Shown piece after piece: positions 676 through 18,568 of a DNA stretch of 35,843 bases. This DNA comes from Armatimonadota bacterium (lineage in GTDB: Bacteria; Armatimonadota; Hebobacteria; GCA-020354555; CP070648). The translations under genes were made by a program, and so were the position numbers. Each line of letters starts with the position of its first letter. Within the stretch, counting starts at the first letter, position 1. The notes under the pieces were generated by a model. The model was given only the letters and a program-made list of their open reading frames with translations. It did no database searches and was not told where the DNA came from. The stretch is taken from assembly GCA_035527535.1 (NCBI GenBank), contig DATLAK010000076.1, positions 1-35,843 of the forward strand, written 5' to 3'.

Positions 676-702
676 CACAGCCGGGGGCGGCTGTGCCACA
701 TG
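676..702 (+). repeat. palindromic repeat element, copy 1 (CACAGCCG/CGGCTGTG)
   Basis: A perfect 8-bp stem, CACAGCCG (676-683) and CGGCTGTG (688-695), with a GGGG loop. It is followed by CCACATG, whose ATG is the exosortase start candidate. Both ends of the element recur at 12784-12834, before the membrane part of the DUF2723 glycosyltransferase gene: CACAGCCGGGGGC on the left and CGGCTGTGCCACATG on the right. This looks like a dispersed REP-like element. It occupies the normal Shine-Dalgarno position of the exosortase gene. Confidence 0.65.
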
Positions 703-1587
703 ATGTCCATCGCAATCTCCCGTCTGAGGATTCCCTCGTTGTCCACGCTTGCCGTAGTCGCCGCCGGCGCGTGGCTCTACGCTCCTGTGGCGGCGGAAAT
801 GGTGCAGGCGTGGCGCACCCAGGATAACGCCTCGCACGGGTTCCTGATCCTCCCCATCGCCGGGTATCTGGTATGGCTCGACCGCGCGAGGATCGCACGG
901 GCGTACCGCGGCGGGGCCACCGCCGCAGGCCTGGCGTGGGCGGGGGTGGCGCTGGTCATGTACCTCGGCGGGCGCTGGATGGAGGTCGAGTTCCTGCCGC
1001 CGCTGTCGCTGGTGCTGATGATCGGCGCGCAGGTGCTCTACTTTGGCGGCTGGGGGGTGCTGCGGGCCTCGGCGTTCCCCTGCGCGTTCCTGCTGTTCAT
1101 GGTGCCGTGGCCGGACCTCCTGGTCGAGTTCCTGAGCTTCCCCATGCAGTTGCTGTCCGCCAAGTACGCCGCGATGCTGATCGGGCTGTTCGGCATCCCC
1201 GTGACGCGCGCCGGCGTTGACCTCCACCTGGCGAGCTACACCTTTAGCGTCGGCGCGCCCTGCAGCGGGATGAAGACGCTGGTGGCGCTGTTGGCACTGG
1301 CGGCGCTGATCGCCCACCTCGCACGCGGGCCGCGGTGGAAGCGGACGGTGTTGTTCGCGTGCGGCGTTCCGGCGGCGCTGCTCGCCAACGTCGTGCGCAT
1401 CGTCATCATCCTGCTCATCGCCACCCTCGTCAGCGCCCGGGCGGCGGAGGGCTTCTTCCATGGCGCCTCGGGGATGCTGGTGTTCGTGATCGCGCTGGCG
1501 GGGCTGCTGGCGACGGGCCGCGCCATGGGCCTGGGTGGGGTGCTCGGCGGGGCGGGCGCGGAGAAGTCGGATGCGGCCACCGGATAG
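700..1587 (+). CDS. xrt: exosortase (PEP-CTERM sorting transpeptidase)
   Basis: A 295-residue multi-pass inner-membrane protein of the exosortase/archaeosortase family. It is predicted to recognise C-terminal PEP-CTERM signals, cut them and hand the protein to the cell surface. The family triad is visible: Cys188 in APCSGMK, Arg233 in NVVRIVI and His254 in FFHGASG, each in a hydrophobic segment. The N-terminal family signature SHGFLILPIAGYLVW is also present. The ATG at 700 (or 703) directly abuts a palindromic repeat, so no normal ribosome site is seen; a GTG at 667 is an alternative start. The 3' end overlaps the EpsI-like gene by 17 bases. A client protein with a PEP-CTERM tail is encoded at 4062. 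The exosortase subtype cannot be named from this view. Confidence 0.93.
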   Translation: MMSIAISRLRIPSLSTLAVVAAGAWLYAPVAAEMVQAWRTQDNASHGFLILPIAGYLVWLDRARIARAYRGGATAAGLAWAGVALVMYLGGRWMEVEFLPPLSLVLMIGAQVLYFGGWGVLRASAFPCAFLLFMVPWPDLLVEFLSFPMQLLSAKYAAMLIGLFGIPVTRAGVDLHLASYTFSVGAPCSGMKTLVALLALAALIAHLARGPRWKRTVLFACGVPAALLANVVRIVIILLIATLVSARAAEGFFHGASGMLVFVIALAGLLATGRAMGLGGVLGGAGAEKSDAATG

Positions 1588-2203
1588 ACGAGCGATAGCG
1601 ATGCTGGGGCTGCTACTGGCTGCGCAGGCGGCGGCCTGGGCAACGCGCCCGGTGGCGCGGCCGCCGAGCCCGGTGGTGGTCGAGCGGGTGCCGCTGCGCA
1701 TCGGCGAATGGCGCGGGCGCGACCTCGGCCCGCTCGAACGCGGGACGCTCGAGATGCTGCAGCCGGATGACTACCTCAACCGGGAGTACGTCAGCGCCCA
1801 CGGGCTGCCGGCGTACCTGGCGGTGATCTACGGCCACCGCAAGACCACTTTCCATTCGCCCGGATTCTGCCTGCTGGGCGGCGGGTGGAATATCGTCGAG
1901 AAATCCCGTTTGCAGCTCGCCACCGCGGGCCGCAGCCGCATCGAGGTCAACCGGTTTCTGCTCGTACGCGGTGATCAGCAGGCGGTGGTGCTCTACTACT
2001 ACCTGCAGGGCAAACGGTCGAGCGCCAGTTGGGTCACGCATCAGCTCTACCTGGTGATGGATCGCGCGCGTCAGCGGTCATCGGCGGGTGCGCTCGTGCG
2101 CCTGACCGTGCCCGTGGTCAGCGATGCCGCGACCGCCACCGGGCAAGGCGCGGACCTGCTCGCCCGTCTCGCCCCCCATGTGGGCGAAGCCATTCGTCCC
2201 TAG
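1571..2203 (+). CDS. epsI: EpsI-like exosortase-associated protein (DUF3485)
   Basis: A 210-residue protein with an N-terminal signal anchor (MLGLLLAAQAAAWA) and a periplasmic EpsI/DUF3485 domain. In many genomes this domain follows an exosortase or is fused to its C-terminus. The characteristic motif is FHSPGFCLLGGGW, with conserved His, Pro, Cys and Gly-Trp; the later segment VLYYYLQGK is also typical. Its biochemical role is not established; it is thought to act in exopolysaccharide production or exosortase function. The ATG at 1571 is preferred because GGAGAAG precedes it and it overlaps the exosortase stop by 17 bases, a coupling arrangement. An in-frame ATG at 1601 is the alternative. 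Confidence 0.88.
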   Translation: MRPPDRRAIAMLGLLLAAQAAAWATRPVARPPSPVVVERVPLRIGEWRGRDLGPLERGTLEMLQPDDYLNREYVSAHGLPAYLAVIYGHRKTTFHSPGFCLLGGGWNIVEKSRLQLATAGRSRIEVNRFLLVRGDQQAVVLYYYLQGKRSSASWVTHQLYLVMDRARQRSSAGALVRLTVPVVSDAATATGQGADLLARLAPHVGEAIRP

Positions 2204-2234: not shown

Positions 2235-3923
2235 GTGTCCAACCAGCAAGCGGTACCACCACCGGCAGGCGAGCGCCGGAAGCAATCGCGGCTCGCCGGC
2301 GGGGACGAGGTCGTGCCCCGGCGCGCCGATGCGATCGAGGCGTGGAGCCGCACCGTCGTCGTGCACCTGCTGTGGATCGGCGCCGGCGCGGCCGCCCTCG
2401 CCCTGCAGTTCGTGCGCGGCTTCCGCGGCCTCTACCTCAGCGACGCCATGGACCTGGCCCAGATCGGCAGGCACCTGGCGGCGGGCGACGGATACGTCAC
2501 CTCGCTGCTGCGGCCAGCGGCGATCGGCCTGTCCCATCGCCTGCCGGCGCCAGAGCTCTTCCATGCGCCGCTGCACCCGCTCATCCTCGGCCTGGTCTTC
2601 ATCATCTTGCCCGAGACCGACCTGGTGGTGGCGGCGGTATCGGCGTTCTTCTTCGCGGCGACCTTGCCCCTGGTTTACCTGCTGGGGGCCAAGCTGTTTG
2701 ACCGCGCGACCGGCGTGCTGGCGGCCGTCCTGTTTGCGCTGAGCGTGAGCGCACTGGGCTACGCGGTGTCCGGCCTCCACGTCACGCTGTGGGCGTTCTT
2801 GCTTACGCTCGTCGTCTATCTGCTCTACACCAACCCGGGCTCGCGGCGGCGCAGCCTGGCGGCCGGAGCGGTGCTGGGCCTGTGCTGGCTGACCGAGTAT
2901 CTCACCATAGCCCTGGTCGTTCCCGCGCTGATCGGCGCATACTACATGCAGCCCGAGCGTCGGCGGCGCCATCTGGCGTGGTTCGCGGTGGGGCTGGTGG
3001 TGGTGATGGCGCCGTGGTGGGTGCGCAACCTCCGCGTCGCCGGCGATCCTTTTTTCACCCTCGAGCGCTATCAACTGGTCATGTTCACCAGCGCCCACCC
3101 CGGATACCAGTTGCTCAGAAGCGCCGACCCCTCCGCGCTGAAGCTGCCGGCGCTCGTGCTCGACAGCGCGCGGCCGCTGGTCAAGAAAACGATCCTGGGC
3201 CTGGCGTCGGCCTATCGCATCCTACCGCCGTTGGTAGGTCTCTACGTGGTGGCCTTCTTCGTCATCGCCATGATGCGCCGGCTGGGGGCGCCGCGGCCGG
3301 ACCTGGCGCGCAAGACGGTGTTCATGCTGACCGCCTTCATGGTGGCGATCGGCGCGCTGCACAATCCCACCGCCGAGACGTTCTTCGTGCTGGTGCCACT
3401 GATAACGGTGCTCTGCGCGGGGTACTTCCTCGCGCTGGTGCGCGAGTGGATCGGCACCAGTCGGGGGCGTTCGGTGGCGGTGGTGCTGTTTGCGGCGCTG
3501 GCGGCGTATCCCGCCCTCGTCTCGTGGGCGACGCCGCAGCCGAAGGCGCTGCCCAGCCGCGCCAATCTCAACTACCTGCGGGGGCTGGTTGGAAAACACG
3601 CGGTCGTGGTCAGTGATGCCCCGTGGGCGGTGGCGTGGCACGCCCGGCGCTTGGCGGTGTGGCTGCCACTTGCAGGTGAGGACTTCGAGGCGGTGCAGAA
3701 GAGCATCGGCGTTGACGCGATTTACTTCTCGACCCTGCTGAGCTCCTACCCTGCGTCCGAGCAGCCGCTGCTGTGGCAGCGGCTCTATGCCGGGCGCACC
3801 CCGCCGCCCGGCTTCGAGGTTGCGGCGACGCTGCCGCCGGGGGAACTGGTGCTGCTGAAGGAGGAAGCCGCTGCCGGGGGGCGGGTCGGGCCGCCAGAGC
3901 CAGCGGGCAGCGACCGGCCTTGA
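2235..3923 (+). CDS. GT39-like membrane glycosyltransferase (PMT/ArnT superfamily)
   Basis: A 562-residue protein with about ten to twelve hydrophobic helices followed by a soluble C-terminal part of roughly 120 residues. The first luminal/periplasmic loop carries LYLSDAMDLAQIGRHLA, the acidic loop typical of PMT-type glycosyltransferases that use lipid-linked sugars. It is followed by ELFHAPLHPLILG, the usual second loop of the family. Such enzymes move a sugar from a polyprenyl carrier to a protein or glycan outside the inner membrane. The GTG start at 2235 is chosen because AGGGAGG lies eight bases upstream; a longer frame would run back into the EpsI gene. It follows EpsI by 31 bases and is probably co-transcribed. 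The substrate is unknown; glycosylation of PEP-CTERM or surface proteins is a reasonable guess from context. Confidence 0.8.
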   Translation: MSNQQAVPPPAGERRKQSRLAGGDEVVPRRADAIEAWSRTVVVHLLWIGAGAAALALQFVRGFRGLYLSDAMDLAQIGRHLAAGDGYVTSLLRPAAIGLSHRLPAPELFHAPLHPLILGLVFIILPETDLVVAAVSAFFFAATLPLVYLLGAKLFDRATGVLAAVLFALSVSALGYAVSGLHVTLWAFLLTLVVYLLYTNPGSRRRSLAAGAVLGLCWLTEYLTIALVVPALIGAYYMQPERRRRHLAWFAVGLVVVMAPWWVRNLRVAGDPFFTLERYQLVMFTSAHPGYQLLRSADPSALKLPALVLDSARPLVKKTILGLASAYRILPPLVGLYVVAFFVIAMMRRLGAPRPDLARKTVFMLTAFMVAIGALHNPTAETFFVLVPLITVLCAGYFLALVREWIGTSRGRSVAVVLFAALAAYPALVSWATPQPKALPSRANLNYLRGLVGKHAVVVSDAPWAVAWHARRLAVWLPLAGEDFEAVQKSIGVDAIYFSTLLSSYPASEQPLLWQRLYAGRTPPPGFEVAATLPPGELVLLKEEAAAGGRVGPPEPAGSDRP

Positions 3924-4061: not shown

Positions 4062-4715
4062 ATGAGAGGAATGCTGATGGTGGCGCTGCTGGTCGTCGCG
4101 CTGGCCCTGTGCGTGACTGCCGCCGGCGCCGATCCGTGGCCGGACTACTACAGCCAGACGACGACGGTCGACTATGTGACGGTGGTGCCGGTGTTCGATG
4201 CGGGGAGCGATACCTGGACCTATCAACTGGGCGTGATTCCGGGCGCGACCGATCCGGTGTACGGAGCGCTTGATCCCACCTACGGCGGGGTCAAGGCGCT
4301 GGTGGTGTACCAGCTCGGGGTTGGCACCGCCCAGGAGCCGAACTACTACGCCGGGGAGCCCAACCCGCCGTACACGACGCGCCCCGGCTGGGACATCAAC
4401 GGCGGCTGGGAAACCCATCCGGCGTCAGGTGGCAATCCGGGCTGGGGAGCGTTCGGCTGGCGGGGGAGCAGCCCGGATTCGTACGTTAATCCAGGCGAAA
4501 CCGACAGCACCAACTTCTGGGCGCATTGGTCGGGCACGCCGGCCGCCGACGATTTCGTCTATCTGGTGCACGTGGCGATCGACTCCTCTCCGGGCGCGAC
4601 ATCTCCGCAGACCTTCTGGGCGCGCATCGGGGAGCCCATTCCCGAACCCGCCTCGCTGGTGCTGCTGGGCGTGGGCGGCGCCGGCCTGTTGGGTCTGCGG
4701 CGCCGCCGCAAGTAG
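4062..4715 (+). CDS. PEP-CTERM sorting-domain secreted protein
   Basis: A 217-residue exported protein. The N-terminus is a clear signal peptide (MRGMLMVALLVVALALC, then AAGA before the mature DPWPDYY). The body is rich in Tyr, Trp, Gly and Pro, without a domain I can name. The C-terminus is a textbook PEP-CTERM signal: IPEPASL, a hydrophobic helix with LLGVGGAGLLGL, and the basic end RRRRK. The exosortase 2.5 kb upstream is the obvious processing enzyme. The ATG at 4062 is chosen over an in-frame ATG at 3945 because GGGAGG sits six bases before it and the signal peptide begins there; the 3945 start would also lie upstream of the sigma-54 element. A terminator follows at 4776. Confidence 0.92.
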   Translation: MRGMLMVALLVVALALCVTAAGADPWPDYYSQTTTVDYVTVVPVFDAGSDTWTYQLGVIPGATDPVYGALDPTYGGVKALVVYQLGVGTAQEPNYYAGEPNPPYTTRPGWDINGGWETHPASGGNPGWGAFGWRGSSPDSYVNPGETDSTNFWAHWSGTPAADDFVYLVHVAIDSSPGATSPQTFWARIGEPIPEPASLVLLGVGGAGLLGLRRRRK

Positions 4716-4775
4716 AGACCGCCCGGCGCCCCAATCGCGGGGGGGCTTGCTCCCGCCCGCTGATGGACGATTTAC

Positions 4776-4810
4776 GAGCCCGGCATCACCTGCCGGGCTC
4801 GTGCCTTTTC
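4776..4810 (+). terminator. intrinsic terminator after the PEP-CTERM gene
   Basis: A 10-bp perfect stem, GAGCCCGGCA (4776-4785) with TGCCGGGCTC (4791-4800), and a 5-base loop. It is followed by GTGCCTTTTC with a short T run. It separates the exosortase cluster from the riboswitch-led surface operon. Confidence 0.75.
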
Positions 4811-4857
4811 ATCGGCCCTGCGCTCCTTGGGTTCCTCTCGGCCGCCGCCGTCAAATG

Positions 4858-4866
4858 TGGAATAAT
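4858..4866 (+). promoter_or_regulatory. candidate extended -10 promoter for the riboswitch transcript
   Basis: TGGAATAAT gives an extended -10 (TG-N-AATAAT, five of six matches to TATAAT) with no convincing -35 upstream. It stands in a local AT-rich patch and would start RNA near 4873, about 75 bases before the riboswitch core. Weak by itself, it gains support from position. Confidence 0.4.
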
Positions 4867-4934: not shown

Positions 4935-5022
4935 TACTGCTGGATGATAAAGGCAAACCCTTCGTGAGGAGGGGACGCAAAACCACGGGACTCACCGAGT
5001 CAGCCGGGTTGCCAAACAGCGA
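4935..5022 (+). ncRNA. GEMM-I riboswitch (cyclic-di-GMP class I)
   Basis: The conserved GEMM pieces occur in order. AAAGGCAAACC is at 4948-4958. A stem capped by a GNRA-type GUGA tetraloop follows (CCCTTCGTGAGGAGGG). GGGACGCAAAACC, the tetraloop-receptor strand, is next, then a third hairpin GACTC-ACC-GAGTC. AGCCGGGTTGCC (5002-5013) closes the domain by pairing with GGCAAACC. GEMM-I aptamers sense cyclic di-GMP, and a subgroup prefers cyclic GMP-AMP. The base aligned with the selectivity position of the Vibrio aptamer appears to be G, which favours cyclic di-GMP, but that alignment is from memory. A strong hairpin 35 bases downstream can serve as the expression platform for the DUF11 gene. 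Confidence 0.85.
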
Positions 5023-5056
5023 ACCACGGGACCGTCGCAAATTATCGTAGTGTCCT

Positions 5057-5093
5057 AGCTGCCTCTGGCGATTGGCTGCCAGAGGCAGCTTTC
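5057..5093 (+). terminator. 13-bp hairpin, probable riboswitch expression platform
   Basis: The arms AGCTGCCTCTGGC (5057-5069) and GCCAGAGGCAGCT (5078-5090) are perfect complements with an 8-base loop, followed by TTTC. It lies 35 bases after the GEMM aptamer and about 155 bases before the DUF11 start codon. The T tract is short, so termination strength is uncertain. Between 5094 and 5244 there are further GC-rich hairpins but no gene. Confidence 0.6.
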
Positions 5094-5244
5094 ATAGCAC
5101 CAACTCAAGCAGCATCAATACATCAGCACCTCCTTTACCGGCAGTATGGAGACGGCAAGCGCGAGTCGGGCGGTTGCGCCCGGGGGACGCTCAGCCGTCC
5201 GCTCAGCGGGGGAACCGGAACGGACACCCCAGGAGGTGACTGAG

Positions 5245-6153
5245 ATGCGTTGGCTGAACGCCGCGAGCCCTGGAGCAGTCGGGCTGGCGGCCTTGTGTTT
5301 GGTTCTATCCGTCGCGGCCGCACCCCCCGCCCACGCCCAGGGCACGGCCGCCGGCACCGTCATCCAGAATACGGCCAGCCTCAACTTCAATGATGCTGGC
5401 GGCCAGCCGCAGCCGACGGTAGACTCCAGCGCCGCCACGACCACGGTCAGCCACGTCGCCGCCGTCCAAGTGGCGCCGGCGACCGGCGCCAAGGACGGCC
5501 AGAGCGGCGAGGTCCTCTACTACGCCGCGACCGTGACCAACAAGGGCAACGGCCCTGACACCTTCTCGCTGACGGCGGCCTCCGCCAGCAGTCCCGCGTG
5601 GACCGTCGCCATCTACAAGGACGACGGCGCGGGCGGCGGTACCGCCAATGACGGCGTGCACCAGTCCGGGGAGACGAATCTCGCGTCCACCACCGGCAGC
5701 ATCGCCGCCGAGGCCGCCTTCAAGTGCTTCGTCGCGGCAACAGTGCCCGCGGGCGCCGCGGGCGGAACGGTTGACTCCACAACCTTCAGCGCCACCTCCC
5801 AGTTCGACGCCGGCAAGCAGGCGTCCGCCGTGTTCTCGACCACGGTCAAGGCCGCCGCCATGAGCCTGACCAAGGCCGTGGACAAGGCACAGGCTGCGCC
5901 GGGCGAGACGATTCGCTACACCATCACCTACAGCAACGGCGGCGACGCCGCGGCCACCAGCGTGGTCCTGACCGACACCGTACCGTCCGCCGTGACCTAC
6001 GTCGCCAACAGCGTCAAGGTCAACGGCGCCGCCAAGACCGACGCCGCCGACGGCGACAACGTCACGGTCGCCGCGGGCGTGTTAACCGTGAGTCTCGGCA
6101 GCGTGGCTGCCGGCGCTAGCGGGACTATCACCTTCGACGCTACCGTCAAGTAG
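5245..6153 (+). CDS. secreted DUF11-domain surface protein
   Basis: A 302-residue exported protein. A signal peptide (LAALCLVLSVAAAPPAHAQ) ends with a clean AHA-Q cleavage site near residue 32. The mature start GTVIQNTASLNFND is the usual opening of DUF11-type surface proteins. A C-terminal DUF11 domain covers about residues 208-302 (SLTKAVDKAQAAPGETIRY, then YSNGGD, VVLTDTVP and a beta-rich end). DUF11 domains are Ig-like beta-sandwich modules of S-layer or adhesin proteins. The ATG at 5245 has a near-perfect AGGAGGTGA upstream; longer in-frame starts would run into the leader. No sorting signal is seen at the C-terminus. It is the first gene after the GEMM riboswitch, so cyclic-dinucleotide control of surface character is likely. 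Confidence 0.85.
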   Translation: MRWLNAASPGAVGLAALCLVLSVAAAPPAHAQGTAAGTVIQNTASLNFNDAGGQPQPTVDSSAATTTVSHVAAVQVAPATGAKDGQSGEVLYYAATVTNKGNGPDTFSLTAASASSPAWTVAIYKDDGAGGGTANDGVHQSGETNLASTTGSIAAEAAFKCFVAATVPAGAAGGTVDSTTFSATSQFDAGKQASAVFSTTVKAAAMSLTKAVDKAQAAPGETIRYTITYSNGGDAAATSVVLTDTVPSAVTYVANSVKVNGAAKTDAADGDNVTVAAGVLTVSLGSVAAGASGTITFDATVK

Positions 6154-6178
6154 CAGAGCGACTGGCAAGCTGGCAAGC

Positions 6179-6213
6179 ATCCCGGGGCCCGGCTCCGTGC
6201 AGGGCCCCGGGAT
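6179..6213. repeat. perfect 12-bp inverted repeat between the DUF11 and FlgD-Ig genes
   Basis: ATCCCGGGGCCC (6179-6190) and GGGCCCCGGGAT (6202-6213) are exact complements around an 11-base loop. No T run follows, so it is not a classical terminator. In RNA it would form a very stable hairpin 25 bases before the next start codon. It could stabilise the upstream message, attenuate read-through, or be a protein-binding palindrome. Confidence 0.6.
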
Positions 6214-6238
6214 AGATACCCCAGGTTTGGGATCTCGC

Positions 6239-8059
6239 ATGACAGGCTGGCGATACTCGCAGGACGCAGGCAGCAAACCCCGCCCCAGCGGCGGATGGTG
6301 GGTCGCGATTGCCGCCCTGCTGCTGGTGGTGGAGGTATCGCTTCCCACCGGACGTGCGCGAGCGGCGACGACCATCGTCAATACCGCCGCCCTCGGCTAC
6401 GATCTCGCCGACGGGCGTCACACGCTGCTGTCGAATGCCGCGGCTACGGACGTCACCAGCGGGCACTCGATCAAGGGCGTGGTCAAGGACGAAAACGGCG
6501 TGCCGGTGCGCAGCGCGCGCGTGGACGCCAAGAGCAAGAACGCGACCAAAGCGGACGCGGTCACCGCCACCACGGTGACTGACATCGCCGGGACTTATGC
6601 GTTGGCCGGTCTCGCCGCCGGGACCTACGATGTCTATATCACCGCCGACGGCCGCGTCCCCGAGGTGCTGCCGGGGATCACGGTGGGCCCCGATACGCCC
6701 GCCGTCGCGCTCGAGACGCGGGCGCCGGCGGCGGAATCGTGGCCGCGCGGGCTGTACATGGCAGCGCTTCCGTTCAGCTTCGCCAGCCCCGACCTCGGCG
6801 CGGCGTTGGGGCGCGCCTCGGGCCTCAAGGCCGCGCGGTGGGTGCCCGACAAGACGGGCGGCCGCTACGTCTACTACGGCCAGGACGCGGCCTTCCCCGC
6901 AACCGCGCCCGGTTTGGGCTATTGGATACAGGTCGGGCCCGGGGACGTCCTCGGAGTCGCCCAGCCCGGCACCCCGCTTGACGAGAGACGGCCCTACGCC
7001 GTGCCCCTGACGGCGGGGTGGAACATGGTGGGCAACCCGTTCTGCGCCGACCTCGAGTGGGCGGGGGTGGAGGTGCGCGCCAACGGCCAGACGGTGTCGC
7101 TGGAGACGGCGGCGCAGAACAACTGGGTGCGGCCCTATGCGTGGACCTACGACCCCGCCGCGGGCGAATACGTCCTGATGGACGCGGCATATCCGGGGGC
7201 GCGCAGAACCCTGCCCGTGTGGCAGGCGTGCTGGGTGCGGGCGCTGGTTAACTGCGACCTGATGATTGCGCCGCCCGGCGCCGCCGCGAAGAGCGCCACG
7301 GCGGCGACGCGCAGCGTTCAGCCGGCGCCGGCGTGGAGCCTGCAGTTGGTCGCGCGCGTCGGCGAGATGCGGGACAGCTTCAACTACATGGGGGTGGACG
7401 CCAACGCCGCCTCCTGCGACGGCCGAGGTAAGCTGCAGACCCCGCCGCGGCTGTCGCCCTACGTTGATCTGAGCTTCGGCGACGGGCGGGCCGCCGCCGC
7501 GGACCTGGCGACCGATTTCAGGCCGCCGGCGGCAGGCCGCGCGGAGTGGGATTTCGTGGTGCGCTCGGACCTGGCTGACGCCCGCGCCGAGATCACCTGG
7601 CCGGACCTGTCCGAGGTGCCCGACCGCTACCGCATCACCCTGGTGGACGTTGACGCCCAACGGCGGCAGTACATGCGGACGACCGGCTCCTACGTCTTCA
7701 ATACCGGCGCCGGCGGCGGCGAGCGCCACTTCAAGATCGAGGTTGACCCCACGCCGTGGGCGCGACTCCAGGTGGGCAACCTGCAGCAGATGGTGGGGCG
7801 AGCGGCAGGCGCGACCGTAGCTTACGATGTTTCGAGCCCGGCGGCGGTGGACATCGAGATTCGCACCCTGGCGGGACAGTCGGTCAAGGTGCTGGCGCGC
7901 GGGGCCAGGGCCGCGGCCGGCACCAACATGATTACCTGGGACGGCACGGACTCTTCCGGACGCATGATGGCCAACGGCCCCTACCTGTGCGCGATCTCGG
8001 CGGTGACCGAGGAGGGGCAGGCGGTCAAGGGCATGCGGACGATCATTCTCAAGCGTTAA
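6239..8059 (+). CDS. secreted protein with carboxypeptidase-regulatory-like and FlgD-Ig-like domains
   Basis: A 606-residue exported protein. Its layout is: signal peptide to about residue 40 (WWVAIAALLLVVEVSL, then RARA); a mature opening TTIVNTAALGYDLADG that resembles the opening of the DUF11 protein next door; a carboxypeptidase-regulatory-like Ig fold at about 75-150 (SIKGVVKDENGVPV, AGTYDVYITADG); a middle region with GYWIQVGPGD and GWNMVGNPF; and a FlgD-Ig-like C-terminal domain (VDIEIRTLAGQSVKVL, GTNMITWDGTDSSGR) at about 525-606. No enzymatic motif is evident; a structural or binding role at the surface is likely. The ATG at 6239 is preferred over a GTG at 6197 that lies inside a hairpin. 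The next gene begins 13 bases downstream. Confidence 0.8.
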   Translation: MTGWRYSQDAGSKPRPSGGWWVAIAALLLVVEVSLPTGRARAATTIVNTAALGYDLADGRHTLLSNAAATDVTSGHSIKGVVKDENGVPVRSARVDAKSKNATKADAVTATTVTDIAGTYALAGLAAGTYDVYITADGRVPEVLPGITVGPDTPAVALETRAPAAESWPRGLYMAALPFSFASPDLGAALGRASGLKAARWVPDKTGGRYVYYGQDAAFPATAPGLGYWIQVGPGDVLGVAQPGTPLDERRPYAVPLTAGWNMVGNPFCADLEWAGVEVRANGQTVSLETAAQNNWVRPYAWTYDPAAGEYVLMDAAYPGARRTLPVWQACWVRALVNCDLMIAPPGAAAKSATAATRSVQPAPAWSLQLVARVGEMRDSFNYMGVDANAASCDGRGKLQTPPRLSPYVDLSFGDGRAAAADLATDFRPPAAGRAEWDFVVRSDLADARAEITWPDLSEVPDRYRITLVDVDAQRRQYMRTTGSYVFNTGAGGGERHFKIEVDPTPWARLQVGNLQQMVGRAAGATVAYDVSSPAAVDIEIRTLAGQSVKVLARGARAAAGTNMITWDGTDSSGRMMANGPYLCAISAVTEEGQAVKGMRTIILKR

Positions 8060-8072
8060 GGGGCGTTGCAGC

Positions 8073-8459
8073 GTGAGGGGCTGGCGAGGAAAGATCGAGC
8101 ATCACCGCGCGCGGTCGGCGCTGGCGGCCATCGCTTGCGCCGCGGCGGCGCTGGCGCTGCCCGGCTGCGGGGGTGGGGGAGGAGTTACCCCCGCCACCGC
8201 CGTCGTGCAGGGGTATGTGCGCGAGATGACCTCCGACCGCGCCGTGCAGGGCGCGACGGTCGCCATCGCCGCGATCGGAACCACCACCGACGCGCAGGGG
8301 CGTTTTCAACTGGCGGGCGTGCCCACCGGCGCCCGCACCATAACCGTCGAAGCGGCCGGCTACTCGGTCCACACCGAGATCCTGAACATCGCCGCCGGCG
8401 TCACGACCCTACCCGACATCCTCCTCGCCGACAGCCCGCCGCCGCCCCCGGTTCCATAG
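8073..8459 (+). CDS. lipoprotein with a carboxypeptidase-regulatory-like domain
   Basis: A 128-residue protein. A basic N-terminus and hydrophobic stretch (ALAAIACAAAALA) end in the lipobox LPGC, so Cys at about residue 33 should be lipid-modified after cleavage by signal peptidase II. A Gly-rich linker follows. Then comes one carboxypeptidase-regulatory-like Ig domain (VVQGYVREMTSDRAVQGATV, TTTDAQGRFQLAGVPTGA). The tail is Pro-rich (PPPPPVP). The start is GTG. It sits 13 bases after the FlgD-Ig protein and 10 bases before the barrel gene, so the three form one operon. A periplasmic or outer-membrane accessory of the barrel is the simplest inference. Confidence 0.82.
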   Translation: MRGWRGKIEHHRARSALAAIACAAAALALPGCGGGGGVTPATAVVQGYVREMTSDRAVQGATVAIAAIGTTTDAQGRFQLAGVPTGARTITVEAAGYSVHTEILNIAAGVTTLPDILLADSPPPPPVP

Positions 8460-8469
8460 GTAAACGGCA

Positions 8470-11085
8470 TTGCGAGTTGCGCGGGCGCAAGTGAGGGCTG
8501 GCGGCAGGGCGCGAGGCCTGCTGGGGTTGGCGTTGGCGGTTGCGGCGTTGATGGTCAGCGCGCGGCCGCTGTGCGCGGCCGACGTACGCCTGGGGCCGGC
8601 GTCGCTGTCCGTTATCGGCCAGGACTCGCTGACCTTCCGCAAGGAGAGCGTCTCCGGCTCCGAGGCCAATCGCAGCGCCTACCGCTGGGACAACTACTCG
8701 CAGTCCGCCGGCTTCGAGCATCGCACCGACCTCACCATCCACGGCGAGCTCTTGCCCGACCTGCGGGTGGACGCGGCGATCGCCAGCGGCCCCTTCAGCG
8801 CCGGTCACCAGCGGCTGACCTTCACCTTCGACGGCAGCGACGCCGCCGTCGTCGTCGGCGACCTGACGGTGGCCTTCGACCAGACCCTGCTCGCCGGCTT
8901 TCGCCGCAGCCTGCGCGGCATCCAGGTCGAGAGCAAGCTCCCGCGCGGAGCGCTCAACCTGGTCGCCTCGCAGTGCGAACCACTGCTGCGCACAGACACG
9001 CTCTACGGCGGCAATTCGCCCGGCCCCTACTACCTGGCCGCCAGCCCGGTGGTGGACGCCTCCGAAGTCATAGAGATTGACGGCCGCCCCATGCGGCGCG
9101 GCAGCGACTACAGCATTGACTACCAGGTGGGACTGCTGCAGTTCTCGCCCGCCCTCATCATTCCGCCCACATCGCGCATCGTCGTCAGCTACGAGTACGA
9201 CGCCCCAGGCAGTCTGTCCGGCACGCTGATCGGGCTGCGCGCGGCATACCCGGTCGCGCCGGCGCTGAGAATCGGCGCGACCTATCTTACCCTGCAGCGT
9301 CGAGGCGTCGGTGACCCTGCCTCCGCGCAGCGCGAAGACCGCTGGCTCGGCGCCAATTCGCCAGGTCCGTTCACCTTGAGCCACCGGCCCATCGAGCCGG
9401 GCAGTGAGCGGGTGCGCCTGGACGGAATACTGCAGGTATCCGGGCGCGACTACCACATTGACTATGCGACCGGCGCGATCATGTTCCTGGGGCCGGTGCC
9501 GGTGGGAGTTTCGATCATCGTCAGCTACCGCGTGTCCGGCGCCGCGCCGACCGCCACCCCTGACCGGTCATTGGTCGCGCTCGATGCCCACTACACCGCG
9601 GCGGGCTTGGCGCTCGATGCGGAGCTGGCGCAGAGCGCGGGCGCGCCCGGCTCCTCGGGCGCGGCGGTGGCGTTGGGCGCTCGTGGCCAGTGGGATCGCC
9701 TGACGCTGGCGGCCAACGTGCGCAGCTCCGGGGCCGGCTTCGCGCCCTTTGAGTCCGCCGGCCTCAAGCAGAGCTGCAGCGGCTATGACTGGCAGTTGGG
9801 CTTCGAGCCAGCCGCCGGGCTCCACCTCTCCGCCGGCATGCGCGACCAGCGCCGGCCCTACTGCCAGGCGACCGACGCGTCGGGCCCGCTGGTGCGCGAT
9901 CGCAGCCGGGAGCTCAGCCTCGATTTCCGGCGCGCAGGGTGGCCGTCGCTGTCGTACGCCGGATCATGGAGCGTCCTCGACGCCGCCCAATCGGTGCACG
10001 AGAACAGTGGCAACCAACTGCTGACGCTGGGCTATGAGCGCGAGGTGTACGGCATCAAGGCCGCCTATCGCCGCAACTCCTACGGACGCCAGGGCGAGCA
10101 GCCCGCGTCTGCGCAGCCGGCCCTGGCCGACGGCCTCTCGTCCCTCGCCCCGGGTGACTGGGCCCTGCCCTATGCGGGCAGCGGCACGGGCGCCGCCCTC
10201 AGCTTCTGGTACCGACCGGGCTCCGCGCTGAACGTCACCTGTGATCTCGCCCGCAGCGCCATCAACATCAACGACGGCGGCCGCAGCAGCGCCGACAGCC
10301 GGCGCCTGGCTGTTGAGTACGCCCCGGCGGCGAACACCTCGATCAGTGTCGGCTATCGCACAAGCTCAACCGGCGAGACCCTGGCCGCCGACGGCCGGCG
10401 CCTGCCTGGCTCGACCAATCGCAGCCAGCTGCTGAGCATCCGGCACAGTCTCAGGCCCGACCTGTCGCTCAGCCTCGCCTACGACACCCAGATGAGCCAA
10501 GGCGGATACGGCACCGACACCGACAGCGGCGCCGTGAGCCTGGGCATGTGGTGGCAGCCCGCCGCGTCCTTCGCGCTCATCGGGCAGTTCACGCGGCAGG
10601 ATCTCGCCTACCTTGGGGCCGGTGGCAGGTGCTCCAACAACATCACTTCGTTGGGGGCGACGATGGGGCCGTTCGGCCCCGGGGTCAAGCTCGATCTGAG
10701 CTACAGCCGCATGAGCGGCTCCACCAGCGGCGACTTCGGCGCGGGGTATGACGCGCAGTCGGCAGGTCTCGCCGCGTCTACCGGTGACGATGCTGTGGCC
10801 GCCGCCGTGCTGGGCATTCGCGGCACGGCCAATTCGAGCATGCGCGCCCGGCTGAGCTGCGCCCTCGGCGGCAGCCACGAGGCGTACGCCGAGTGGGAAA
10901 TGAGCCGCAATTCCGGCCACTCCGGCGCAAGCGCCAGGCGCGCCGTTGCCCTGGGGTGGGAAGTGGCCCTGGCGCACGCCCTCAGCTTCACGCTTGACTG
11001 GCGGCGGACCGCCGGCATTTCGGCGGATCCCCGATACAGTTACCGCGCGCAGACCATCAGCGGTCGGCTCGGGCTCAAGTTCTGA
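8470..11085 (+). CDS. large outer-membrane beta-barrel protein
   Basis: An 871-residue protein with a signal peptide (LLGLALAVAALMVSARPLCAA). Long runs of alternating polar and hydrophobic residues follow, ending in ISGRLGLKF; a final Phe is the classic outer-membrane-barrel C-terminus. Two copies of a module of about 66 residues lie near the front: residues 178-243 (NSPGPYYL, RGSDYSIDYQVGLLQF, IVVSYEY) and 291-356 (NSPGPFTL, SGRDYHIDYATGAIMF, IIVSYRV). Similar modules occur in SprA-like and other large diderm surface proteins. The start is uncertain: TTG at 8470 is used here and GTG at 8491 is an alternative. It is the last gene of the operon with the lipoprotein and the FlgD-Ig protein. It may export or anchor them; this is inference from context. 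Confidence 0.82.
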   Translation: MRVARAQVRAGGRARGLLGLALAVAALMVSARPLCAADVRLGPASLSVIGQDSLTFRKESVSGSEANRSAYRWDNYSQSAGFEHRTDLTIHGELLPDLRVDAAIASGPFSAGHQRLTFTFDGSDAAVVVGDLTVAFDQTLLAGFRRSLRGIQVESKLPRGALNLVASQCEPLLRTDTLYGGNSPGPYYLAASPVVDASEVIEIDGRPMRRGSDYSIDYQVGLLQFSPALIIPPTSRIVVSYEYDAPGSLSGTLIGLRAAYPVAPALRIGATYLTLQRRGVGDPASAQREDRWLGANSPGPFTLSHRPIEPGSERVRLDGILQVSGRDYHIDYATGAIMFLGPVPVGVSIIVSYRVSGAAPTATPDRSLVALDAHYTAAGLALDAELAQSAGAPGSSGAAVALGARGQWDRLTLAANVRSSGAGFAPFESAGLKQSCSGYDWQLGFEPAAGLHLSAGMRDQRRPYCQATDASGPLVRDRSRELSLDFRRAGWPSLSYAGSWSVLDAAQSVHENSGNQLLTLGYEREVYGIKAAYRRNSYGRQGEQPASAQPALADGLSSLAPGDWALPYAGSGTGAALSFWYRPGSALNVTCDLARSAININDGGRSSADSRRLAVEYAPAANTSISVGYRTSSTGETLAADGRRLPGSTNRSQLLSIRHSLRPDLSLSLAYDTQMSQGGYGTDTDSGAVSLGMWWQPAASFALIGQFTRQDLAYLGAGGRCSNNITSLGATMGPFGPGVKLDLSYSRMSGSTSGDFGAGYDAQSAGLAASTGDDAVAAAVLGIRGTANSSMRARLSCALGGSHEAYAEWEMSRNSGHSGASARRAVALGWEVALAHALSFTLDWRRTAGISADPRYSYRAQTISGRLGLKF

Positions 11086-14984: not shown

Positions 14985-16706
14985 CTACGCTCGCGCGCCG
15001 TGCTGACGCAAGAGCGCCGCGACGCTTCTGTCCCTGGCGAAGTGAAACGGGGTCATGCCGTCATCGTTTTGCGCGTCGGCATCGGCGCCGGCGGCCAGCA
15101 GCGCTTTCGCCGTTTCCGCATCACCTTTGGCAGACGCGTAGTGCAGAGCCGTCCAACCGCGGAGCCCACCGGCGTTGACATCCGCTCCCGCCGCGATCAG
15201 GAGCTTCACGCTTTCGGCGTCGCGCCGCACGCTGGCCCGCAGCAGCGCCGTCCAGCCGTCTCGGGACCTGGCGCTGACATCGGCGCCAGCCGCCACCAAC
15301 GCGGACAAGGTTTCACTGGCACTGGCGCCATGACCGGATGCGTCTCTCGCCAAGGGGCCGCACCATGCGCCGGCAAGGGCCAGCGGCGTCGCGCCGTCCT
15401 TGTCCTTGGTGTTCACCTTGGCGCCCGCCGCTAGAAGTGCCCTCACTGACGCGGCATTGCCGCACTCGGCGGCGTAGTGCAGGGCGGTGCGACCGCTTCG
15501 GTCTGCGGCGTTAGCGTCGGCCCCCGCGGTTAGCAGCAACTCAAGGATCTCACTGCGGGCGCCCACCGCCGCGGCTCGGAGTGCGGCGGATATGCCGCGG
15601 CCGTTAGTCGCGTTCGCGTCCGCGCCGTGCGCCAAGAGCAAAGCCACGGTGCGGGGACTGCGCGAAGTAACTGCGCTGAGCAGGAGCCCGGACGGTCCGC
15701 CCGCCGTGGACTGCATCCTTGCCCCGTGGGCGAGCAAGAGCGCCAGGCACTGGGGATCCTTCTTGAAGACAGCCCAGTCTAGGGGCGTGCAGCCGAACTT
15801 GTCGCGGTGGTTCGCATCAGCCCCGCGCGCCAATAGCAGCTTGACGGCCTCGGGGGACTTGCAGGCGGCATACGCGAGGGGCGACCAGCCTCGCTTATCG
15901 GCCGCGTTGATGTCCGCGCCTTTGGCCAGCAGGCGCGCGACGGCGGCCGCGTCCCCACGCGAAGCCGCCCGGTGCAGCGGCGGCATCCGCGCCCCTTCGT
16001 CGCGCCCGAGATACCAGAAGGTCGCCAGCAACACCGCGGTCCCGCCCAGCATGAGCAGCATCCACCCACGCTGGCGCCTGCCCTGGGCGCCAGCGGGCGG
16101 CGCGCGCAAAGCGGTGCCGTCACCGCATTCCACGCAATCGTGCAGCCCAAGTCGTCGCGGCCGCGCCGCCCACAGGAATTGCAGCACCCCCGCCGCCAGC
16201 AGCGCCATTGCCCCGAATACCGCCAGGTCGGCGACGTTGTACGCGAAGTCTCCGGACTTGCCGAACTCGAGGAAGTCCACGCTGTAGCCGAGGCGGACGC
16301 GGTCAAGCAGGATCGCCAGCAGACCACCCCCCAGCAATGCGCACCCGCACTCCGTCAGCACCGACACGCGATACCGCCGACGCACCAGCCGCGGGTAGAG
16401 CACCGCCAGCGCCGCCACCAGTCCCACCGTTGTCGCCAGCAGAGACGGCGAGGACCCGCCGAATCCCAGCCCCATATTCTTCATGTAGGCGATGCGCAGC
16501 CATCCGCCGAAGAACGACGGGGTCGGGTAATGCCACCCATGGCGCATCACCAGCGCCTTCGTCGCCTGGTCGAGCAGGCACACGCCGAGGGCCACCACCA
16601 GCCAGCGCCGGGGCGAACCGAAGCGGCAAAGGTACACCGCCAGCACCGCGATCAGCAAGATCGCGCCCACGATGGGTTGGATCAGCCCCGGTCTCATGGA
16701 TAGCAT
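14985..16706 (-). CDS. signal peptidase II (LspA)-ankyrin repeat fusion
   Basis: A 573-residue fusion. Residues about 30-180 form a lipoprotein signal peptidase II domain: LLDQATK with Asp46, KNMGLGFG with Asn77, VDF with Asp144, and YNVAD with Asn157 and Asp160. The two catalytic aspartates expected for LspA (144 and 160) are both there; the usual NxxDR is changed to ILLDR. One extra helix precedes the four LspA helices. A basic linker with CVEC follows. A sixth helix (about 215-233) comes next, then ten ankyrin repeats (about 243-573; typical HYAAECGN and LLAAGADVN motifs). Positive-inside charges place the ankyrins on the periplasmic side. Ordinary LspA is about 160 residues. ATG at 16706 has GGAAGAG upstream; a TTG precedes it. 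It stands alone, divergent from the sigma-fusion gene. Confidence 0.85.
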   Translation of the reverse strand: MLSMRPGLIQPIVGAILLIAVLAVYLCRFGSPRRWLVVALGVCLLDQATKALVMRHGWHYPTPSFFGGWLRIAYMKNMGLGFGGSSPSLLATTVGLVAALAVLYPRLVRRRYRVSVLTECGCALLGGGLLAILLDRVRLGYSVDFLEFGKSGDFAYNVADLAVFGAMALLAAGVLQFLWAARPRRLGLHDCVECGDGTALRAPPAGAQGRRQRGWMLLMLGGTAVLLATFWYLGRDEGARMPPLHRAASRGDAAAVARLLAKGADINAADKRGWSPLAYAACKSPEAVKLLLARGADANHRDKFGCTPLDWAVFKKDPQCLALLLAHGARMQSTAGGPSGLLLSAVTSRSPRTVALLLAHGADANATNGRGISAALRAAAVGARSEILELLLTAGADANAADRSGRTALHYAAECGNAASVRALLAAGAKVNTKDKDGATPLALAGAWCGPLARDASGHGASASETLSALVAAGADVSARSRDGWTALLRASVRRDAESVKLLIAAGADVNAGGLRGWTALHYASAKGDAETAKALLAAGADADAQNDDGMTPFHFARDRSVAALLRQHGARA

Positions 16707-17167
16707 CAAGGACTCTTCCGCGTAGGGTCACACCCGAGTGGCTAGGCCGCAAGGGCCGCCACGGCGGTCATCAGATGGCTCGGATGACCCAGCCGCGGTC
16801 ACGCCGGGTCCCGCTACCAGGAAGCGGCGCGCGTCCGTTCGGCGCATGTCTCAATTATTCCGCATCCGCGCCCACTGACGGCAGTGGAGCTACAGGCCGT
16901 GGGCGGCAGGATACGCGGCATCCGGTGCCGTAACCACGCATACATTCGCATTCCCGAAGGAGCCGCCATGAGGGAATCATCACCCACCCATCCGCGCGCG
17001 CTGGTGGCGCAGCCGTCCCGGCTGCGAAGTGGCTGGCGGGCGGGACGCCCGCCCCACCGCGCGGTGGACGTCATCGCCACGAGGCGCGTTTGGCCCCCGG
17101 GCGCAGCGGCCGCAATTCGCAGTTCCGGGACTCGGCTGGATTGCATCAATAGCAGCAGAGAGCGAAG
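16707..17167. other. intergenic region between divergent genes
   Basis: This 461-base gap separates the LspA-ankyrin gene (minus) from the sigma-fusion gene (plus). It must hold both promoters, but no strong -35/-10 or -24/-12 pair was seen. A small reading frame (ATG 16968, GAAGGAG upstream, stop at 17190-17192) spans the gap but consists largely of repeat sequence and is not accepted as a gene. The twin-hairpin repeat at 17008-17053 is the main structure. Confidence 0.5.
17008..17053. repeat. twin 8-bp hairpins
   Basis: Two perfect stems lie side by side: CGCAGCCG/CGGCTGCG (17008-17026, 3-base loop) and GGCGGGCG/CGCCCGCC (17035-17053, 3-base loop). The first resembles the CACAGCCG element seen twice elsewhere. 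They look like REP-type dispersed repeats in the leader of the sigma-fusion gene. Confidence 0.5.
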
Positions 17168-18568
17168 TTGGCGGCCACCGACGCGAGCCTGATAAGAGCG
17201 TGCCTCGCCGGCGAGATCGAAGCATTCGGCGAACTCGTTGAGCGCTATCGCAACGCGGTCTACGGGCTGTGCTACGCGCGGGTGGGGGATTTCGAACAGG
17301 CGCGTGACCTGGCGCAGGACAGCTTCGTGTCGGCATACCGGGCGTTGGGCCAACTGCGGGAGCCGGAGCGCTTTCCTGCGTGGCTGCGGACGATCGCCGA
17401 TAACATCTGTAAGGCCGCGCTGCGGCGCCGGCAATCGCCCGAAGAATCATTGGAGGAGAAGGCGCTGCCCGCTGCGGGCGATGTCGCGGAAGAGGTAAGC
17501 GTTCGCCTCGCCGTGCAGGCGGCGCTGCGATCCCTGCCTGAGGACAACCGCCTGGTCGTTTCGCTGTTCTATGTGAACGGCTACACCTGCGACGAAATCG
17601 GAGAGTTCCTGTCGGTACCCGCCAGCACGGTCAAGGGCCGGTTGCGCGCGGGTAGAGCCAGGCTGCGGCGGCGCCTCGCGCCGCTGGTGCCAGAGCTGTT
17701 CCGGGAGAAAGCGCTGCCGCCGGAATTCGGAGGTGAAGTGATGCAACGGATTGGCAAGGTCGAGCTGCGACGGCAGCACTCCGCACCCGTTGTCGTGCTG
17801 AGTACTGAGGCGGGACTAGAGCTTCCCATCTGGATTGGCGAGACTGAAGCCACGGCGCTGTGGCTCGAGCTGGGCGAGAAAACGACGCCCCGCCCCATGA
17901 CCTACGACGTCTTCCTCGAGGCGCTTTCGGCTTTCGGTGTCAGCGTGGAGCGCGTCGAAGTCGCGGAGATCCGCGACACCACGTACATCGCGAGCGTCGC
18001 ATTGAGGCGGGGCGGCGAGACGAAGACTCTGGACGCACGTCCCAGCGATGCCATCAACATCGCTCTGCGGGCCAAGGCGCCTATCTTCGTCAGCGATTCG
18101 CTCGCCAGCATCGTAGACGGACATCCGGCGATGACCGCGGGAATGGCAGAGTTCCAGCCGAAAGAGGCCGGGCCTGTTGTGATATGTACCGGGCATGTCT
18201 TGACGCGAGGTTCGTCGTGGGTAGCAGAGGGGTGCGAGCCCATCCTCCGAGTCGTACGCGTCATCCTCGGCGCGGCCGTGCGTGAGCAAGCAGACCTGAT
18301 TTCCATTCGCCCCGACCGGAAGCGCGCGGACGCGGTGTCGGTTCATTTCCGAATAGGTAGGGAACGTAAGGAGCGCATGAGCATCCCGGTTTATGTGCTT
18401 GCGCCCCTGCGCGAATGCCTGGCCGAGATGGCGGGCGTGGAGCTCAGGCCCGGCGCGCGGCGCCAGACTGGCACCATCCACGCCGTCATCGAAGAGCAGG
18501 GCCGTGACTTTCGGGTGACCTTCAGCCCCACCGCCATCACCATCAAGCCGATGCCCGCAGCACCGTGA
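17168..18568 (+). CDS. ECF sigma factor fused to bifunctional-nuclease and GspE/PilB-N-like domains
   Basis: A 466-residue protein with three parts. Residues about 8-88 are a sigma-70 region 2 (AFGELVERYRNAVYGLCY, ARDLAQDSFVSAYRAL). Residues about 115-170 are region 4 (SLPEDNRLVVSLFYVNGYT, then STVKGRLRAGRARLRRRL). Residues about 192-318 are a bifunctional-nuclease (BFN/DUF151) domain with LPIWIGETEATAL, RPMTYDVFLEAL and DARPSDAINIALR. Residues about 357-458 resemble the N-terminal lobe of GspE/PilB ATPases: ILRVVRVILGAAVREQADLI and SIRP correspond to the family's ASDIHIEP helix-strand, followed by VSVHFRIG and MAGVELRPGARRQTGTI. No Walker motor follows. The start is TTG at 17168 with AGAG upstream. 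No anti-sigma gene is adjacent, so the fused domains may replace one. This is inference. Confidence 0.85.
   Translation: MAATDASLIRACLAGEIEAFGELVERYRNAVYGLCYARVGDFEQARDLAQDSFVSAYRALGQLREPERFPAWLRTIADNICKAALRRRQSPEESLEEKALPAAGDVAEEVSVRLAVQAALRSLPEDNRLVVSLFYVNGYTCDEIGEFLSVPASTVKGRLRAGRARLRRRLAPLVPELFREKALPPEFGGEVMQRIGKVELRRQHSAPVVVLSTEAGLELPIWIGETEATALWLELGEKTTPRPMTYDVFLEALSAFGVSVERVEVAEIRDTTYIASVALRRGGETKTLDARPSDAINIALRAKAPIFVSDSLASIVDGHPAMTAGMAEFQPKEAGPVVICTGHVLTRGSSWVAEGCEPILRVVRVILGAAVREQADLISIRPDRKRADAVSVHFRIGRERKERMSIPVYVLAPLRECLAEMAGVELRPGARRQTGTIHAVIEEQGRDFRVTFSPTAITIKPMPAAP

Follow-up and report, generated by a model that had tools for sequence, protein, structure and literature searches.

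Two kinds of described system come closest to the locus considered here: riboswitches that sense cyclic di-GMP (c-di-GMP), and the outer-membrane translocon of the type 9 secretion system (T9SS). In the Cd1 OFF switch of Clostridioides difficile, an antiterminator unfolds the binding pocket, as described in an excerpt of PMC9262584, while an aptamer of this type in the leader of Geobacter pilM responds to cyclic GMP-AMP and works as an ON switch (same excerpt). Several papers, in their abstracts, describe the T9SS as confined to the Bacteroidetes or to the Fibrobacteres-Bacteroidetes-Chlorobi group and as powered by a proton-driven motor; the barrel of its translocon SprA has 36 strands (excerpt of PMC10994853). 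Here we analyze a stretch of 35,843 nucleotides from an Armatimonadota bacterium (contig DATLAK010000076.1, assembly GCA_035527535.1; hereafter the window), whose genome comprises 3.24 Mb in 192 contigs and is 96% complete. In this window a c-di-GMP-I aptamer precedes four genes, termed A, B, C and D. We propose, with roughly even confidence, that the 5' leader holds a c-di-GMP-I riboswitch through which a single transcription unit for an outer-membrane export module is controlled, together with type IV pili encoded elsewhere in the genome. The same-family comparison throughout is with one genome of a sister genus (G001), the only other genome of this family that was searched.

The c-di-GMP-I riboswitch and its probable direction

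An earlier note on this DNA, made from the letters alone, had proposed a GEMM-I aptamer, and the covariance-model scan bears this out by passing the gathering scores of two Rfam models. The c-di-GMP-I-GGC model (RF03167) matches positions 4943-5017 of the forward strand over its full length (73.0 bits, gathering score 59, E 1.3e-15) and gives the sole RNA of the window above its gathering score in the first Rfam scan, and the c-di-GMP-I model (RF01051) matches the same site with 70.2 bits against a gathering score of 35. The GGC variant was reportedly named by Weinberg in 2017, and the GGC of its name presumably refers to the nucleotide after GACGC. In the printed alignment, the G that the GGC consensus has after GGGGACGC is A in the window, as it also is in the other three aptamers of the genome; a G for A after GACGC, or after the sequence equivalent to it, was thus found in none of the four. 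Because they have A instead of the variant's G, the four aptamers are read as canonical c-di-GMP sensors, and the higher score of the GGC model would stem from other features, such as a short P3. The orphan-ligand GGC variant was set aside as a candidate on account of the wrong nucleotide at this diagnostic position.

The nucleotides at the ligand positions are present in the window within AAAGGC, GGGGACGCAAA and TTGCC, fitted by eye to the numbering in which G20, A47 and C92 are the residues around the c-di-GMP-I ligand. Because the aptamer has these canonical nucleotides, its sequence makes c-di-GMP, rather than cyclic GMP-AMP, the likely ligand. That the best Rfam model is the GGC variant would fit an aptamer that senses cyclic GMP-AMP or some unknown dinucleotide instead; we regard this as very improbable, given the A shared by all four aptamers, the eight GGDEF matches in the genome, and the G found at the position linked to cyclic GMP-AMP preference. 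As a separate observation, CCACGGGAC, part of the P3 5' strand (4983-4991), recurs at 5024-5032, where it could compete with P3; this repeat is absent from the sister genus.

Downstream of the aptamer, the hairpin of 13 base pairs that had been described beforehand consists of 13 exact pairs, formed by 5057-5069 with 5078-5090, a number that none of 2000 dinucleotide shuffles of the leader (5018-5244) reached, the maximum being 10. A hairpin of altered sequence stands at the same place in the sister genus. Among the six leaders of three orthologous pairs, terminator-like hairpins were found by script in five, and in the sixth, the pilus leader of the sister genus, by eye and with an imperfect stem. 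The sequence GCCAAACAGC at 5011-5020 has its proposed pairing counterpart in the terminator arm. The duplex energy of the terminator 5' arm with the P1 3' strand was reached, per 2000 shuffled arms, by 46 in the window, 46 in the module leader of G001, 19 in the pilus leader of the window's genome (C97) and 3 in the pilus leader of G001, in a comparison of four leaders (module and pilus in both genomes) in which orthologous leaders are not independent, the shuffles keep base composition alone and the stretches were chosen by hand.

The switch is of a known kind. Since the 5' arm of the terminator is complementary to the 3' strand of P1, as in the OFF switch Cd1 of C. difficile, we somewhat favor the OFF direction. 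In the fold of the G001 leader at the decision point, the antiterminator pairing has a probability of 0.91-0.98 for most of the arm. Other folds weigh against this direction: at the decision point of the window leader the arm favors the 5' P1 strand (0.58-0.59 for its last part), a pairing that also excludes P1, and in the C97 leader P1 stays formed while the antiterminator has a probability of about 0.01. These two folds leave the OFF direction uncertain, and the weak T tract after the 5057-5090 hairpin counts against the proposed mechanism as a whole. An ON switch, or action mainly via another structure, through which c-di-GMP would raise the expression of the module and the pili, is therefore a serious, if less probable, alternative. 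It draws on the closely related Geobacter pilM leader, in which the same aptamer type acts as an ON switch (PMC9262584, excerpt), and on the folding of the C97 and C72 leaders, which does not show the proposed antiterminator; it has to contend with an arm complementarity beyond that of most shuffles in four leaders and with the strong antiterminator pairing in G001.

The transcription unit and its companion riboswitches

The riboswitch-led operon is real and conserved. In the sister genus, the order of exosortase, EpsI, glycosyltransferase, PEP-CTERM protein, aptamer, A, B, C and D is identical, with protein identities of 71% for A, 60% for B, 40% for C and 60% for D, and the orthologous aptamer lies 3.5 kb before D. 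The genes past D are unlike in the two genomes, so the unit ends at D. The operon postulated in the earlier note is thereby supported by the synteny of cluster and aptamer, which does not extend past D. The gene identities given there were also confirmed (A a DUF11 protein, B a FlgD-Ig protein, C a lipoprotein, D a barrel), as were the gaps of 10-13 bases among the last three genes: B and C are separated by 13 bases, and C and D by 10 if D starts at the TTG at 8470. The start of gene A is most likely 5245, after AGGAGGTGA, rather than 5146. A stable hairpin without a T tract occupies the A-B gap in both genomes and perhaps marks the point where the operon would yield more A than B-D, like a structural subunit placed before export genes. 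Among 21 sources searched, gene A was detected solely in the window and G001. The adjacency of aptamer and D is likewise confined to these two genomes, and in other genomes that have both, the aptamers listed sit on different contigs or at a great distance.

Each of the two genomes has four aptamers, three of which are orthologous by their genes and lead the putative surface-export module, a type IV pilus operon and minor pseudopilins. The pilus operon (C97) encodes a DUF4388 protein, PilM, PilN, PilO, a secretin, a PilB-type ATPase with an MshEN domain, a PilT-type ATPase and a PilC-type protein, and its counterpart in G001 was matched as far as the PilB-type gene. The minor-pseudopilin locus behind the C72 aptamer encodes two N_methyl proteins and a PilX_N protein. 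The fourth aptamer leads a PKD-domain exported protein in the window's genome and, in G001, a reading frame with a stretch that looks pilin-like by eye. Control by a cyclic dinucleotide, which had been suggested earlier, appears well founded: the covariance scores speak for it, orthologous leaders retain the aptamer, and companion aptamers precede genes for type IV pili. The HD-GYP enzyme that had been put forward with it, as able to degrade the ligand, is indeed encoded in the window, but its tie to the operon did not hold: the gene is about 12 kb distant and the genome has the eight GGDEF matches mentioned above, so its presence is not operon-specific, and it was set aside as a dedicated partner.

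Three further observations concern this set of genes. The PilB-type ATPase behind the second riboswitch (C97, L009 4619-6316) has an MshEN domain; since this domain binds c-di-GMP, the pili may be doubly controlled by the same messenger, through riboswitch and MshEN. The third gene behind the C72 riboswitch (L010 7439-8524) combines a PilX_N start with a bactofilin domain. The motif AAYRTGGAAWA has 12 sites in the window's genome, against none for a reversed control pattern, and lies upstream of all four riboswitches (the window, C97, C72 and C3 leaders) and in eight other places, where, by eye, it stands before genes for exported proteins, a response-regulator-like gene and a membrane protein encoded close to a GGDEF gene; it resembles a promoter or activator site for a regulon of surface genes.

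Gene D, SprA and the putative cargo proteins

Sequence comparison and predicted fold point to a relation between gene D and SprA. The D protein matches the SprA model TIGR04189 in two stretches (E 2.4e-13, 48.2 bits), best at residues 183-278, and in a phmmer search of the PDB with E up to 1 it found SprA alone (two distinct sequences, E 0.0028). An hhalign comparison of a D-type profile with a profile of nine SprA-type proteins gave 98.4% probability and E 5e-15 over 93 columns, which include the next two strands. AlphaFold2 models were generated from the same 29 sequences for D (predicted local distance difference test, pLDDT, 76.2; predicted TM-score, pTM, 0.57) and for a relative with 24% identity (L098; pLDDT 78.1, pTM 0.65). 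By hand count the barrel has 35 strands (8 + 2 + 25) in both, and two domains are inserted, one after strand 8 and one after strand 10. In VIA-align, SprA was the top match of the D model, with Z 18.7 over 591 residues at a root-mean-square deviation (rmsd) of 7.0 and Z 18.4 over 631 residues, and of the L098 model, with Z 18.7 over 654 residues at an rmsd of 8.3. With the rmsd high and the model confidence middling, the predicted shape of the D barrel is not settled.

Other measures weigh against a SprA-like barrel. D stays below the SprA equivalog cut-off (48.2 against 200 bits), where an Algoriphagus protein used as a yardstick reaches 2404 bits and an Elusimicrobia protein 166 bits. The SprA model also matches below cut-off in the control genome of Thermus composti, so the shared domain extends beyond SprA. 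The profile A4 found no SprA in the PDB and gave a weak match to a phage-tail protein (E 0.013), and several porins tie with SprA in Z for the D model (17.6 and below), most over about 230-300 residues and one receptor over 395. By Foldseek E-value, MtrB and SlpA rank above SprA for both models, as does LptD for the D model. On these E-values D could be an ordinary outer-membrane porin or a small-molecule or lipid barrel (MtrB-, SlpA- or LptD-like), with A, B and C as separate surface proteins that share the c-di-GMP switch alone; the breadth of its occurrence (below) is what a housekeeping porin might show, and one relative (L081) has an LptA/LptC-like gene near D. We consider this unlikely: the MtrB, SlpA and LptD families are unmatched by sequence whereas SprA is matched, 530-654 residues align with SprA, compared with about 230-454 in the case of the other families shown, and SprA has the highest query TM-score among the Foldseek matches shown (0.40 and 0.41). 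With partial structural coverage and no sequence support, LptD and MtrB were set aside as identities for D. Chaperone-usher barrels occur among the structural matches of the D-type models (PapC with Z 15.4 over 316 residues for D, FimD with Z 17.6 over 352 residues for L098), with no sequence match in Pfam or NCBIfam; an usher-type fold is compatible with these structural matches.

A relation to SprA does not make the locus a T9SS. GldM was matched in none of 61 genomes (GldL not searched), and with a positive control that matched in two of two Bacteroidota, none of four D-bearing Armatimonadota had a match. The PorV family gave no match in the window's genome and G001, and the matches in 26 of the 61 genomes are weak, none of them above cut-off. 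By the features tested (GldM, PorV and the SprA cut-off), the system is therefore not a T9SS, and D was rejected as a member of the T9SS proper; these results also count against the proposed export module. The conclusion that we draw from sequence and model is that D probably works like SprA or descends with it.

As to cargo, the family profile of B matches FlgD (Ig) with E 2e-8 and the PorU C-terminal domain with E 7e-4. The FlgD_ig domain occurs once in the window's genome, which speaks against its use as a general sorting tail, and that idea was rejected. The DUF11 domain of A passes the isopeptide fimbrial domain model TIGR04226 (38.8 bits); A stops right after its last strand and so lacks the acceptor Asn expected of an isopeptide-linked pilin, and such a pilin was set aside as its identity. 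No Pfam match to usher, chaperone or pilin families was found for A-D, and no NCBIfam match to them for A, B or D; gene A has no relative in the PDB up to E 0.1. A two-sequence BLAST of the N-termini of A and B gave E 0.03, a lead only towards a possible common motif. The earlier suggestion of an export or appendage system thus fares differently in its two halves: export gains weight from the predicted relation of D to SprA, and an appendage is unsupported, since the searches with A-D matched no pilin, chaperone or usher family.

Across the phylum, a search with the D profile at E 1e-10 scored in 231 of 291 Armatimonadota genomes, mostly with one to three matches apiece, and among the better D matches most of those that carry a named record come from Armatimonadota. 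No D-profile match was obtained in families f3 and f4 of the same class, though aptamers are common there. The neighbors of D in the stretches read include polysaccharide pyruvyl transferase, DUF5693, PEGA/CarboxypepD_reg lipoproteins and B; in several relatives the genes were taken from open-reading-frame searches. B was seen in 24 of 53 D-bearing stretches, a count subject to three limits: 9 of those 24 had gone into the B profile, L078 and L092 are one contig, and a further two contigs entered twice. Among 14 new stretches, B lies downstream of D on the same strand in 12. D and B are thus close together in many Armatimonadota. The B proteins of relatives (L077-L084, alignment A3) carry an extra N-terminal domain that the window and G001 lack; its H-x3-H and WEEG pattern is, by eye, like that of an inactive metallopeptidase. 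A D-type barrel also occurs in L103, a record titled Methanoregulaceae archaeon and probably a misbinned contig. A literature search combining Armatimonadetes, riboswitch and c-di-GMP found nothing, with most subscription journals outside its reach; no paper among the matches listed links SprA with Armatimonadetes, and PMC12204202, which pairs an armatimonad with the T9SS, is unrelated in the part available.

Proposed mechanism, locus layout and described systems

Computation supplies the aptamer with its terminator-like hairpin, the synteny of the gene set, and a relation between D and SprA in sequence and fold; from there we infer export, ligand and direction. In the proposed mechanism, c-di-GMP would bind and stabilize P1, freeing the 5' arm of the terminator so that transcription stops, and without ligand the P1 3' strand would pair with the terminator arm and the operon would be read. 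A and B would leave the cytoplasm by Sec, and D, a compact channel of SprA-like type, would then carry B, and possibly A, across the outer membrane. The Ig-like domain at the C-terminus of B would do what the C-terminal domain does in T9SS cargo, and C would be an accessory protein of the outer membrane. In the window's family, the module would be controlled with the type IV pili as one surface program.

A wider proposal, which is tentative and on balance doubtful, is that most Armatimonadota export proteins by a minimal type-9-like pathway that lacks the rotary motor of the T9SS, in which a SprA-type barrel of one third the length would secrete Ig-tailed proteins encoded beside it. One family would have placed this pathway, along with exosortase genes and a DUF11 surface protein, under the same c-di-GMP riboswitch control as its type IV pili. 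If true, the T9SS translocon would have a simpler form outside the Bacteroidota group, and the presence of a compact SprA-like barrel, but no GldM, in most Armatimonadota would bear on the origin of the translocon and on motor-free function. The riboswitch would also serve as a handle, marking type IV pili and a defined set of surface genes in a phylum where genetics is little developed.

The features of the locus are collected in the table below. A hairpin followed by TGCCTTTT at 4775-4809, 3' of the PEP-CTERM gene, is terminator-like by eye for the exosortase set. Elsewhere in the window, 14985-16709 (reverse strand) joins a Signal peptidase II domain to a long ankyrin-repeat run, and 17168-18568 (forward strand) fuses sigma-70 regions 2 and 4 to a bifunctional-nuclease domain.

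Table. Features of the riboswitch-led locus and its surroundings, in window coordinates.
Feature	Position	Strand	Evidence
Exosortase (EpsH/XrtA-W type)	700..1587	+	Pfam PF09721 E 1.4e-62; NCBIfam TIGR02602 161.5 bits, above cut-off; ortholog in G001
EpsI-type exosortase partner (DUF3485)	1601..2203	+	PF11984 E 3.5e-37; TIGR02914 82.3 bits, above cut-off
PMT_2-type membrane glycosyltransferase	2313..3923	+	PF13231; G001 ortholog at 59% identity
PEP-CTERM surface protein	4062..4715	+	PF07589; TIGR02595 above cut-off; 62% identity in G001
Promoter-like motif AAYRTGGAAWA	4854..4864	+	Common to all four riboswitch leaders of the genome
c-di-GMP-I aptamer	4939..5020 (Rfam match 4943-5017)	+	P1 lengthened by GCTG/CAGC, an extension seen in the sequence
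Terminator-like hairpin, 13 base pairs	5057..5090	+	Followed by TTCATAG; 5' arm complementary to P1 3' strand
Gene A, secreted, DUF11 repeat, 302 residues	5245..6153	+	PF01345 E 1.9e-12; TIGR01451 66.1 bits; 71% identity in G001
A-B gap hairpin, strong, without T tract	6180..6212	+	Fold of the gap in the window and G001 (L071)
Gene B, secreted, CarboxypepD_reg and C-terminal FlgD-Ig	6239..8059	+	PF13620, PF13860
Gene C, lipoprotein with CarboxypepD_reg	8073..8459	+	Pfam; lipobox LALPGC seen in the sequence
Gene D, putative SprA-like outer-membrane beta-barrel, 871 residues	8470..11085 (start 8470 or 8527)	+	TIGR04189 48.2 bits; PDB 6h3i E 0.0028; model, structural alignment, hhalign
HD-GYP enzyme, response regulator and HD_5	22867-23976		HDIGK and HHERVDGAGYP motifs

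Among described systems, exosortase/PEP-CTERM surface loci resemble this one in the exosortase, EpsI partner, glycosyltransferase and PEP-CTERM protein directly upstream of the aptamer, a stretch that holds both the exosortase and the PEP-CTERM protein by which such loci are recognized; the difference is that Pfam finds no PEP-CTERM tail in A, B, C or D. With SprA (PDB 6h3i, 8gl6, 8gl8), D has in common the G-x-DY-x-IDY-x-x-G domain and the next two strands, as well as a wide barrel, predicted to have about 35 strands, whose alignment runs from the N-terminus to the C-terminus, whereas its 871 residues are one third of the roughly 2400 of SprA and it lies below the family cut-off. Unlike a T9SS, the genome of D has no GldM or PorV match, and the neighbors of D are not T9SS genes. 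Cd1 of C. difficile likewise combines an aptamer, a terminator and an antiterminator drawn from the P1 3' strand (PMC9262584, excerpt), but the genes here are an exosortase-linked surface and putative export module and the type IV pili of Armatimonadota, and the direction here is predicted. The Geobacter pilM leader, finally, places a GEMM-I aptamer before a pilM type IV pilus operon just as at C97; according to the excerpted account, that switch is ON and responds to cyclic GMP-AMP, whereas the leaders described here have canonical c-di-GMP nucleotides and an OFF-like design.

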